Assembly (NCBI GenBank): GCA_903906315.1
Contig: CAIVJW010000216.1
Span: 1-64,000, forward strand
From: an uncultured delta proteobacterium
GTDB lineage: Bacteria; Myxococcota_A; Polyangia; Polyangiales; Polyangiaceae
Direction of reading: 5' to 3'
Length of the DNA: 64,000 nt
In this document: one piece after another, positions 14,391 to 25,078 of the stretch
How the letters are laid out: each line of letters begins with the position of its first letter
Position numbering within the stretch: position 1 is the stretch's first letter
Notes under the pieces: model-generated
Seen by the model: only the letters and a program-made list of their open reading frames with translations
Databases searched by the model: none
Told to the model about the DNA's origin: nothing
Position numbers and translations under genes: made by a program

Positions 14391-14906
14391 CTAGGCACCG
14401 GCGACCGCTGCGGGCGCGCTGCCGGCGAGCATCCAGACGGCCGTCTGGTCGCCCTCGTAGCAGACGGCGCCGTCGTGACGAAACTCGAGCCGGTAGCGCA
14501 CGAAGTGGCGCGTCTTGCCGAGCCGCACGCGCGTCGCCTCGCAGGTCGCGAGGATCGGCGCGCCCGGCTCGACGAGCTTGCGGAAGACGCCGCGATGGAT
14601 GTGCGTGCCGTAGCCGATCCAGCCCTCGTGATGCCGGAGCCCGAGGACGTAGTAGGCGTGAACGAAGCCAATCATCCCCGTCGCGTGGATGATCGCGCCG
14701 CCCGCGACGTGCCGCGGGTGGCGCGCCGGATCCGCGCGTTGCGAGGTGGTGAAGGGCATCGGCCGGTCGGTCGGCATCCGGCAGGCGACGAGGCTGTTCG
14801 CGACGTCGACGGAGACGAGCTCATCGAAGAGCAGGACCTCCGGATCGTAGGGGAGGTCCGCGAGGAAGGCGGCCTCGAAGGGCCCCGGAAACGTGGGCAG
14901 AGCCAT
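14391..14906 (-). CDS. Hotdog-fold thioesterase/dehydratase-like protein
   Basis: 171 residues from the ATG at 14906; in-frame sequence upstream is Arg/Pro-rich and non-coding. The layout (LVSVDVANSLVACRMP, HVAGGAIIHATGMIGFVHAYYVLG, GTHIHRGVFRKLVEPGAPI, RLGKTRHFVRYRLEF) is a single hotdog domain of the FabZ/acyl-CoA thioesterase type. The His in RHVAGG and the following helix are the expected active-site region. Substrate unknown. It is divergent from the kinase gene at 14986 across 79 bases, and both have -10-like boxes very close to their starts. Confidence 0.75.
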   Translation of the reverse strand: MALPTFPGPFEAAFLADLPYDPEVLLFDELVSVDVANSLVACRMPTDRPMPFTTSQRADPARHPRHVAGGAIIHATGMIGFVHAYYVLGLRHHEGWIGYGTHIHRGVFRKLVEPGAPILATCEATRVRLGKTRHFVRYRLEFRHDGAVCYEGDQTAVWMLAGSAPAAVAGA

Positions 14907-21018: not shown

Positions 21019-22221
<1,203 letters not shown>

Positions 22222-22228
22222 GGAGCTT

Positions 22229-22234
22229 TGATTA
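22229..22234 (-). promoter_or_regulatory. Extended -10 box just upstream of the receiver-histidine kinase
   Basis: Minus strand TGC-TAATCA, 7 bases before the ATG at 22221; no Shine-Dalgarno between. Confidence 0.5.
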
Positions 22235-22349
22235 GCACACTGGAGGCGGTCGCCGTCGGGTCGCGAAGGCCTGGCGCGCGAACCGTCCCGACCGGACGCC
22301 GAGCCGCCACTGCGCCCACCGCGCCCCGTGCGCCGCCCTTCCCAGCCAT

Positions 22350-22378
22350 TTGACGCACCCGCCCGCGGGGCGTAAGCC
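22350..22378 (+). promoter_or_regulatory. Promoter abutting the VKOR-thioredoxin start codon
   Basis: TTGACG (22350-22355), a 17-base spacer, TAAGCC (22373-22378), then only 6 bases to the ATG at 22385. The -35 and spacing are near-ideal, and the expected transcription start falls at or next to the A of the ATG. This is the clearest leaderless promoter in the window. Confidence 0.65.
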
Positions 22379-22384
22379 CTCGCC

Positions 22385-23695
22385 ATGTCGAAGCCCCGGA
22401 GCGCGTGGTGGCCGTCGGCGCTCGCCTTCGTCGCCTCGGTCGCCGGCCTCGTTTTCGCGGCGCTCTCGACCTGGGACTACGCGCAGCACCTTGACCGCCA
22501 GATCCACGACGTCCACTGCAGCTTCATCCCCGGGATGCCGGCGGAGAAGGCCGCGGAGAACGCGTGCAAGGTGGCCATGTACAGCCCGTACGCCGCGATC
22601 CTGCGCGACCGGTACTGGGGCGGCGTGCCGATCGCGCTCTTCGCCGTGGGCGCATTCGCGTTCTTCACGGCGTTCTCGGCGTACGCGCTCCTCGGCGGCT
22701 GGCAGCGGCCGCGGCGAGCCGCTCAATTCCTCGCCGCGATCAGCCTGACGCCCGTCGCGGCCTCGGCCGTGATGGCCTTCCTCTCGGCCACGCGCCTCGG
22801 CCATTTCTGCAAGACCTGCGTCGGAATCTACGCCTCCTCGGCGCTGCTCGCCGGCGCCGCGATCGCGATGGTCCTCGTCGAGGGCCGCGAGATCCGCCTC
22901 GCGCTCGCCGCGACGCGCACGGACGCGCCTCGAACCGGGCCGAGCGGCGTCCCGGCCACGATCGTCGACCTCGCCCTCGACGAAACCCCGCCCCCGCGGG
23001 CGCCCGGCGGCTGGCTCCTCGTGCCGACGTGGCTCACCGTGCTGGCCCTCTGCGCGGCCACACCGGTGCTCGTCTATGCGAGCGCGATGCCGTCGTACGC
23101 CAGCCACGTCAACGCCTGCGGCAAGCTCGAGTCACCCAAGGAGACGACGGGCGCGCTGCTCCGCGTCACCCCGGCCGGCGCGACGCAGCCCGCCACGCTC
23201 TTCGTCGATCCGCTCTGCCCGACCTGCAAGGCGCTGCACCAGCGCCTCGTCGCCGAGGGCATGTACGACGGGCTCGACACCACGCTCGTGCTCTTCCCCC
23301 TCGACAACGAGTGCAACTGGATGCTCGACCGCGCGGTGCACCCGGGCTCGTGCATGGTGTCGAAGGCCGTGATCTGCGCCGACTCCAAGGCGCGCAGCGT
23401 GCTCGAGTGGGCCTACGACAACCAGGAGAAGCTCCTCGGCCTCGCGAAGGGCGGCGACCTGCCCGGAGCGCGGGCGATGGTCAAGGCACGCTTTCCGGAG
23501 GTCGACGCCTGCATCGACGCGAAGGAGACGAACCAGCGCCTGATCCGGATGCTGCGGTTCATCGTGAAGAATCACCTGCCGGTGTCGACGCCGCAAATCT
23601 ACCTCGGCGAGACCCGGCTCTGCGACGAGGACACCGACATGGGCCTGCCCTACGCGATGGGCAAGCTCGCGCCCGGGCTGGTCGCCGCGAAGTGA
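22385..23695 (+). CDS. VKOR-thioredoxin fusion, periplasmic disulfide-bond formation
   Basis: 436 residues. The N-terminal VKOR-like membrane domain (four or five helices, about 10-170) has the loop cysteines Cys45 and Cys61 and the catalytic CKTC (142-145). A further helix (about 213-230) leads to a periplasmic thioredoxin/DsbA-like domain with CPTC (278-281) after FVDPL. Bacterial VKOR homologues replace DsbB: they reoxidise the DsbA-like domain and pass electrons to quinone. It heads a three-gene operon with an OmpA-like protein and a TlpA-like lipoprotein. The VKOR residues needed for activity all appear present. Confidence 0.93.
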
Positions 23696-23717: not shown

Positions 23718-24419
23718 GTGAAGGGAGCGGGCGTCGTCGGGGTCGTCATCGGGTGCGCGCTGTTGGCCGCGTCCGCGATCGCCGTTCAAGGTCAGGTGGC
23801 GGACGCCTCGGAGCGCCTGAAGAAGGGGCCCGATCCGAACGCGGCCAAGCCGGCGATCGCGGTCGCCGACGACGCCGAGCTCGCCTACTGCACGCCGGCC
23901 TTCAAGCAGGTCCTGCAGCGCACGCTCAACGCCTGCGGGCTCATCGGTCAGGACGCTCGCCGCGGCTGCCAGCCTGCGGACGTCAAGACGCTCGCCGCGA
24001 TCAGCGACGAGGACTTCAACGCCCTCTTCACGCCCCTCAAGGACCGCGGCGCCGTCATCCAGTTCGACGACGGGTCCGACAAGCTCGACGACGACGGCAA
24101 GAAGATCATCGAGGAGCTCTGGCAGGACCGCCGCGGCGCCCGGTACTTCTTCATCGTCGCGCGCGCGTCGAAGACGGGAGGCGCCGACCTCAACCGCGCG
24201 CTGTCGCACAAGCGGGCGAATTCGGTGCTGTTCGACCTGACCGACAAGTTCCACGACCCCGATCTCGACAAGCAGGTCGGCCTCTTGTGGCTGGGCAACG
24301 AGTTCGCGCAGCTCGGCCCGGAGTACTGCCAGTGGAACATTTCGCGGAAGGGTAAGCCGTGCACCGCAGAGGCCATCAACCGGAGCGCGTTCGTCTCGTG
24401 GGTCGACTGCCAGCTCTGA
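23718..24419 (+). CDS. OmpA-like domain protein in the thiol-redox operon
   Basis: 233 residues from a GTG start, with Shine-Dalgarno-like GAGGAGG upstream. An N-terminal hydrophobic segment (about 5-22) is a signal peptide or anchor. The middle (about 50-95) has several Cys. Residues about 110-180 read as an OmpA-like peptidoglycan-binding domain (VIQFDDGSDKLDDDGKKIIEELW, then NRALSHKRANSVLFDL). Three to four Cys in the C-terminal part suggest disulfides, fitting its place 22 bases behind the VKOR-thioredoxin gene: it may be a substrate of that system. Confidence 0.75.
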   Translation: MKGAGVVGVVIGCALLAASAIAVQGQVADASERLKKGPDPNAAKPAIAVADDAELAYCTPAFKQVLQRTLNACGLIGQDARRGCQPADVKTLAAISDEDFNALFTPLKDRGAVIQFDDGSDKLDDDGKKIIEELWQDRRGARYFFIVARASKTGGADLNRALSHKRANSVLFDLTDKFHDPDLDKQVGLLWLGNEFAQLGPEYCQWNISRKGKPCTAEAINRSAFVSWVDCQL

Positions 24420-25078
24420 TCGCAGCCGGGATCGCGCTCCTCGCCTCGGTCGCCGCGTGCGACGGCAAGAAGGGCGCCCCTCCCCCTCCCCCGCCCAGCG
24501 GCGGCCGCAGCGAAGCCGTCGTCGCGAAGTCCGCGCCACGCCCCGCGCCCACCGCCACCGCGCACGCCGCGCCCGTCGCCCAAGCCCCGCGCGCCCTCTG
24601 CGTCGGCCAGGAGGCGCGGCCCGCCCCGCGCGGCGCGATCAAGACCGAGGCCGCGCCCGGCGCGCAGCCGCTCGCCACGCCCCCGCCGTTCGGCGTCGGC
24701 AAGTGGATGTGGGTCAACCTCTGGGCCGCGTGGTGCGGCCCCTGCAAGGAGGAGATGCCGCGCCTGCGCGCCTGGCAGAACAAGCTCTCCGCCTCCGGCG
24801 TCCTGATCGACCTCGCGTTCGTCTCCCTCGACGACGACGAGCGCCAGCTGCAGCGGTTCCTCGAGGCGCAGCCGCCCACCGGGGTGCGCGCGTCGTACTG
24901 GCTTCCCGACGGCTCGCAGCGCACGTCGTGGCTCGCCGCCTTGGGCGTGAAGGACAGCCCGGAGCTGCCGGTGCACGCGCTCGTCGCTCCGAGCGGCCAG
25001 ATCACCTGCGTGATCCACGGCGCCGTCGAGGAGCGCGACTACGCCACCATCGCCGCGTTCGTCGGCGCCCGCAAATAG
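24359..25078 (+). CDS. TlpA-like thioredoxin lipoprotein
   Basis: 239 residues from the GTG at 24359, which has GGAAGGG about 6 bases upstream; GTG at 24398 is an alternative. Either start overlaps the OmpA-like gene (61 or 22 bases). Lipobox SVAAC (Cys34), then a Pro/Ala linker, then a thioredoxin-fold domain with WCGPCKEEMP (CGPC at 126-129 counting from 24359) and the TlpA-style block LPVHALVAPSGQI. It should be membrane-anchored in the periplasm and act as a thiol reductant or oxidant next to the VKOR-thioredoxin enzyme. Confidence 0.9.
   Translation: MHRRGHQPERVRLVGRLPALIAAGIALLASVAACDGKKGAPPPPPPSGGRSEAVVAKSAPRPAPTATAHAAPVAQAPRALCVGQEARPAPRGAIKTEAAPGAQPLATPPPFGVGKWMWVNLWAAWCGPCKEEMPRLRAWQNKLSASGVLIDLAFVSLDDDERQLQRFLEAQPPTGVRASYWLPDGSQRTSWLAALGVKDSPELPVHALVAPSGQITCVIHGAVEERDYATIAAFVGARK

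Follow-up and report, generated by a model that had tools for sequence, protein, structure and literature searches.

Leaderless genes have been predicted in eight of 33 delta-proteobacterial genomes, with an average of 15.8% (5.7-20.6); the accessible text of that study contains no occurrence of Sorangium or Myxococcus (Zheng et al. 2011, PMC3160421). Among the matches listed, which represent a partial coverage of the journals and are no proof of absence, none treats leaderless genes in myxobacteria. For Deinococcus-Thermus, the available part of the source reports that a -10 element adjacent to the open reading frame drives leaderless mRNA and that a -35 element added at proper positions boosts transcription (PMC12340547). 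The SigA promoters P4rrnD and PB of Myxococcus xanthus are described, in the portion of the article at hand, as having a consensus -35 and differing -10 elements (PMC4182748). The locus described here lies in a 64,000-nt stretch of DNA (the window) from an uncultured member of the Polyangiaceae and carries a gene for a VKOR-thioredoxin-like membrane protein. The gene is probably leaderless. The case is ordinary in kind, but for one gene the support is unusually good. Since leaderless genes were already predicted in some delta-proteobacteria, it would be a well-supported addition to a known class.

Promoter, start codon and gene cluster

The region reads ..CAT TTGACG CACCCGCCCGCGGGGCG TAAGCC CTCGCC ATG (Table 1). 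The original prediction had given TTGACG, 17 nt, TAAGCC, 6 nt and the ATG at 22385, and every spacing is exact in the sequence; the A of this ATG is the seventh base past the -10 element and is preceded by C. The same prediction called the promoter near-ideal, which is incorrect, as TTGACG matches TTGACA at five of six positions and TAAGCC matches TATAAT at two of six (T1 and A2). The -35 is thus TTGACA-like, as in sigma70-type promoters; TAAGCC is not TATAAT-like in the sense of having both A2 and T6, T6 being missing. A strict sigma70 scan of positions 21800-23000 reported no site. Because of the poor TAAGCC and the negative strict scan, the promoter is labelled sigma70-like and not a canonical member. 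The window holds a single TTGACG-N15..19-TAAGCC, and none of 100 shuffles holds any. The looser arrangement TTGAC-N17..19-TA-N9..13-RTG, counted over the whole genome, gave 42 matches and its reversed-pattern control 28 (a GTR pattern control, with 20 matches, overlaps GTG and was not counted as clean); taken alone it is only mildly above chance, and it is the conservation in family upstreams that raises the promoter above that level. A hairpin GGGC-GTAA-GCCC at 22368-22379, a stem with a GNRA loop, was rejected as functional, because its position is upstream of the predicted 5' end and the Sorangium sequences do not keep it (CGCGTAATCC). No strong RNA structure was detected at the predicted 5' end, where 180 of 200 shuffles fold equally well or better (z 1.1).

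The start codon at 22385 is secure. The TAA of the -10 element is in frame with the ATG, so that no upstream start is possible, and going downstream the reading frame offers no other start codon before the ATG of residue 51, beyond the first membrane helix. The starts of 11 aligned family members align with that of the VKOR gene, an agreement that is partly built in, the script having picked starts near the family N-terminus. No SD (Shine-Dalgarno) sequence is present between the -10 element and the ATG. As the start codon is secure and an SD absent, a leader of between 0 and about 2 nt is predicted. The gene has two features expected of a leaderless gene: it combines absence of an SD with absence of an alternative start, and its -10 element ends 6 nt before the start codon (6-8 nt in near relatives), within the span of about 5-8 nt.

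The VKOR domain is recognized by PF07884 (E 3.4e-15) and is present in all 11 aligned family members, in which C142 and C145, as well as C278 and C281 of the C-terminal CxxC, are invariant; Thioredoxin_4 was found at E<0.01 in only three of the 11. No PDB chain matched the family profile at E 0.01. The VKOR, OmpA-like and TlpA-like genes occur in this order at 17/17 loci tested, these being the author's choice out of the listed 80. The third gene starts at 24359 or 24398, the latter being preceded by an SD-like tetramer. The intergenic region between the histidine kinase and VKOR genes measures 163 nt and holds two start-proximal boxes; because the kinase gene also carries a start-proximal extended -10 element, both genes of this divergent pair look leaderless. 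The kinase was rejected as a conserved partner, none of the 17 loci having matched at E 1e-4.

Table 1. Coordinates of the promoter elements and genes in the window
Feature	Position	Strand	Remarks
-35 element TTGACG, preceded by T	22350-22355	+	From the sequence; TTTGAC kept in near relatives
Spacer, 17 nt	22356-22372	+	Largely diverged in near relatives, save the CG adjoining the -10
-10 element TAAGCC	22373-22378	+	TAA invariant in 13/13 near relatives; also an in-frame stop
Discriminator CTCGCC, 6 nt, without SD sequence	22379-22384	+	
Predicted transcription start, A of ATG	22385	+	Suggested by sequence, genome pattern and conservation
VKOR-thioredoxin-like membrane protein gene, 436 aa	22385-23695	+	
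Second cluster gene, OmpA-like match under the Pfam cutoff	23718-24419	+	SD-like tetramer before GTG
Third cluster gene, TlpA/AhpC-type thioredoxin-fold protein	24398-25078	+	
Extended -10 box TGC-TAATCA	22229-22237	-	7 nt before the start (ATG 22221) of the histidine kinase gene, which is divergent

Conservation of the promoter and copies of the motif

The VKOR-thioredoxin protein was found in 33 of 59 relatives searched, and the scan of named genomes covered the best 80 of 110 loci. Of the 110 loci of the upstream set (L004-L113), nine had no usable start or N-terminus and a further 17 were removed as duplicates or as shorter than 75 nt, which left 84 distinct 75-nt upstreams; 14 of these, with a start more than two codons off the family N-terminus, were removed and 70 kept. 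TTGAC stands at -46..-34 of the start in 30/70 family upstreams (shuffle mean 0.5, maximum 4 in 500), farther up at -75..-47 (28 positions) in 10/70, and in the 29 positions closest to the start in 1/70. It is followed by TA at a spacer of 16-18 nt in 23/70 (shuffle mean 0.05, maximum 2). The remaining 40/70 have no TTGAC at -46..-34. SD-like tetramers occur in two of the 30 upstreams with the -35 versus 17 of the 40 without it (Fisher p 0.0009).

Thirteen distinct upstreams, belonging to proteins about 57% or more identical to that of the window, were treated as near relatives: four Polyangium, three Sorangium, one Minicystis, one Byssovorax, three further genomes and the window itself. This set was picked after the sequences were seen, and the unselected figures are the 30/70 and 23/70 given above. 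TTTGAC and CGTAA are invariant in 13/13, with exactly 17 nt between the hexamers, so that a sigma70-type spacing (16-18 nt) is kept despite divergence; across six representatives, each standing for a presumed genus, pairwise identity averages 0.44 for the spacer and 0.41 for the upstream DNA. The gap from the -10 element to the ATG is 6 nt in seven of the near relatives, 7 nt in three and 8 nt in three. Because this gap varies, the TAA is fixed relative to TTGAC and not to the reading frame; its retention as a stop codon was rejected, as it is out of frame with the ATG where the gap is 7 or 8 nt. The other 10 of the 23 upstreams keep TTGAC and TA, lack the CG, and have the TA 6-16 nt from the start. 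The family does not keep leaderlessness strictly, since 40/70 upstreams have no TTGAC at this place and some of the rest have their -10 at a distance of 10-16 nt from the start. The family members L047, L051, L064 and L065 show TTGACC followed by TGC-AACGCT or TGG-AAAGCT, which are possible -10 boxes with A for T at position 1 and a TGn extension. The family is also carried by MAG records titled Bifidobacterium breve (L077), Gemmatimonas phototrophica (L089) and Klebsiella pneumoniae (L097), titles that look wrong.

Copies of the motif elsewhere are few. TTGAC-N15..17-CGTAA has four matches in the window's genome (control 3), which is chance level, and TTTGAC-N15..17-CGTAA has nine in five relatives (control 6; 1-3 per relative), four of the nine being the VKOR gene. 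With counts at the level of the control or little above it, an ECF regulon was rejected. Nine of the 13 motif loci have a start 9-11 nt past CGTAA; five belong to the VKOR gene, in as many genomes, and the other four (L204, L211, L212 and L216) to different genes, whose start codon lies 9-10 nt past CGTAA. At L204, in the window's genome, a long open frame begins 9 nt past the motif. The remaining four motif loci are a tRNA copy and L205, L210 and L213, the last three without a fitting start. The tRNA copy, upstream of a tRNA-Phe gene in the window's genome, fits a housekeeping polymerase. Six tRNA upstreams were usable; L206, picked because it bore the motif, has a clear TTGACA-N16-TAACGT, and among the other five no TTGAC precedes a TA at promoter spacing (L137 shows just a loose TTGCC..TA). 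As these five lack it, the SigA assignment draws on one selected tRNA case and on the form of the promoter.

Start-proximal -10 boxes in the window's genome

A sample of 808 kb of the window's genome, window included, was used, in which 579 genes were called by a procedure that starts from a preset amino-acid composition and whose performance was assessed by eye in the window. The intergenic class (421 genes) is made up of those preceded by 50 nt or more of intergenic DNA, and 126 genes form the operon-internal class. TAnnnT begins at -17..-12 in 80/421 intergenic genes, and equal control windows hold 7 and 8; the counts by position are 27 at -12, 11 at -13, 17 at -14, 12 at -15, 8 at -16 and 5 at -17, with zero at -11..-6 and, at -60..-18, 0 to 5 per position (average about 1). 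In the operon-internal class the figure is 2/126 at -17..-12. Positions -12 and -15 are partly favoured through in-frame stops; the same excess is seen, however, at out-of-frame offsets and for TA[CT] boxes, none of which is a stop (30 vs 7 and 4). At the 130 sites with TA at -16..-12, TGn precedes (T 48%, G 75%) and T6 is found in 58%. SD-like tetramers are present in 4/80 TAnnnT genes, 115/341 other intergenic genes and 63/126 operon-internal genes. Together, the TAnnnT excess and the SD depletion are the trace that leaderless transcription would be expected to leave, and many further genes of this genome look built with a start-abutting promoter. Further genes of the window, at 14906 (-), 14986 (+), 25715 (-), 25782 (+) and 46502 (+), have TGn-TA boxes that begin 12-16 nt before the start codon; four of these five genes form two divergent pairs, each sharing a short intergenic region.

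By the 80/421 count, general use of leaderless genes is indicated for the window's genome (G000). The signature is strong there and weak in another genome of the Polyangiaceae, G031 (L217-L236), with 11/177 at -17..-12 (controls 2 and 5) and 1 at -11..-6. A crude pattern count over 114 genomes of the phylum, which mixes coding and intergenic DNA, shows an increase that is confined to certain families (239 vs 95 reversed in the window's genome). The leaderless mode may expand and shrink between genera.

The VKOR gene is an atypical member of its genome's class, with a good -35 (TTGAC at -47..-33 is found in only 11/421 intergenic genes) and a weak -10 that has neither TGn nor T6. The original prediction of leaderless initiation gains indirect support from the position of the -10 element, 6-8 nt from the ATG in 13/13 near relatives, and from the genome's sharp excess of start-proximal -10 boxes with depleted SD sequences. 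Its ranking of this gene as the strongest single case stands as far as conservation and the -35 are concerned and fails on the -10, which is poor and without a TGn extension.

Interpretation and comparison with known systems

TTGACG-N17-TAAGCC is very probably a real promoter. The reading that we consider likely is that of a housekeeping-type (sigma70/SigA-like) promoter, from which transcription would start on the A of ATG 22385 or no more than about two bases away from it. The mRNA of the VKOR / OmpA-like / TlpA-like cluster would then be leaderless at its first gene, because the predicted transcription start coincides with the ATG. The poor -10 would be offset by the good -35 and, in the absence of an SD, the ribosome would have to bind the AUG at the 5' end without such a guide, as it does in known cases of leaderless initiation; SD-like sites precede the later genes of the cluster.

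A real promoter with a start further up, or at several sites, would give a short SD-less leader of 3-10 nt. A TTGAC placed 42-46 nt before the start, as in some family members, would result in leaders of about 6-10 nt, and this, like the 8-nt gap from the -10 to the ATG in 3/13 near relatives, points in this direction. In the window, however, the -10 stops 6 nt before the ATG and the A is the seventh base, which is the usual distance of a transcription start from the -10, and the box count of the genome peaks at -12 (27/421) and is zero at -11..-6; such a leader is considered unlikely. Some ECF promoters have a CGTA-type -10 at a similar gap, and the 16-nt gap here, together with the CG that is invariant before TAA in the 13 near relatives, would suit an alternative-sigma (ECF-type) promoter or an operator TTTGAC..CGTAA, whose nearness to the ATG would be incidental. 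However, the 10 remaining family upstreams that have TTGAC and TA at promoter spacing lack the CG, the exact motif marks no regulon (four copies in the window's genome, 1-3 per relative), and one copy in the window's genome stands upstream of a tRNA gene, so that we hold this for improbable. A chance match, with the true promoter at another place within the 163 nt between the genes and an mRNA that has a leader but no SD, would accord with the 42 vs 28 count of the loose string before RTG and with a -10 of only 2/6; it is very improbable given that the boxes are invariant over diverged flanks in the 13 near relatives.

A wider reading can be put forward tentatively and with rather low confidence. 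In part of the Polyangiaceae, extended -10 promoters (TGn-TAnnnT) that abut the start would turn leaderless mRNA into a major mode of gene expression, used by roughly one in six of the promoter-proximal genes that were sampled from the window's genome, and the (near-)leaderless first gene of this disulphide-bond operon, retained and maybe selected, would predate the split of Polyangium, Sorangium and Minicystis. A first gene kept leaderless for so long suggests that leaderlessness itself may be selected; envelope redox genes, for example, may still be translated when SD-led initiation is limited. Should the leaderless reading be correct, annotation and expression work on this myxobacterium would have to expect a sizeable share of genes without a 5' leader or ribosome-binding site, and the VKOR gene would show how, at a genomic G+C content of about 72%, a near-consensus -35 can sustain a weak -10 next to the start codon. 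The VKOR gene is a conserved test case, with promoter, start codon and orthologues well defined.

The protein family agrees with known VKOR-thioredoxin disulphide oxidases in its VKOR domain and in the CxxC motifs of the VKOR and C-terminal parts, and differs in the weak recognition of Thioredoxin_4 (E<0.01 in 3/11 members). P4rrnD and PB share with the VKOR promoter a -35 of the SigA type combined with differing -10 elements; their spacer is 18 bp as compared with 17 here, and the available portion of the article does not describe their starts as falling on start codons (PMC4182748). The start-proximal -10 is common to Deinococcus-Thermus and the VKOR gene, whereas, going by the accessible part of that source, the class in the window's genome differs in being TGn-TAnnnT with a G+C-rich interior, and the VKOR gene in pairing a -35 with a weak -10 (PMC12340547). 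The bacterial leaderless genes of Mycobacterium, Deinococcus-Thermus and delta-proteobacteria resemble the VKOR gene in having a promoter that adjoins the start and no SD. Compared with the delta-proteobacterial predictions, as far as the available text goes, the present case is a single gene traced across genera and one with a near-consensus -35 (Zheng et al. 2011, PMC3160421).
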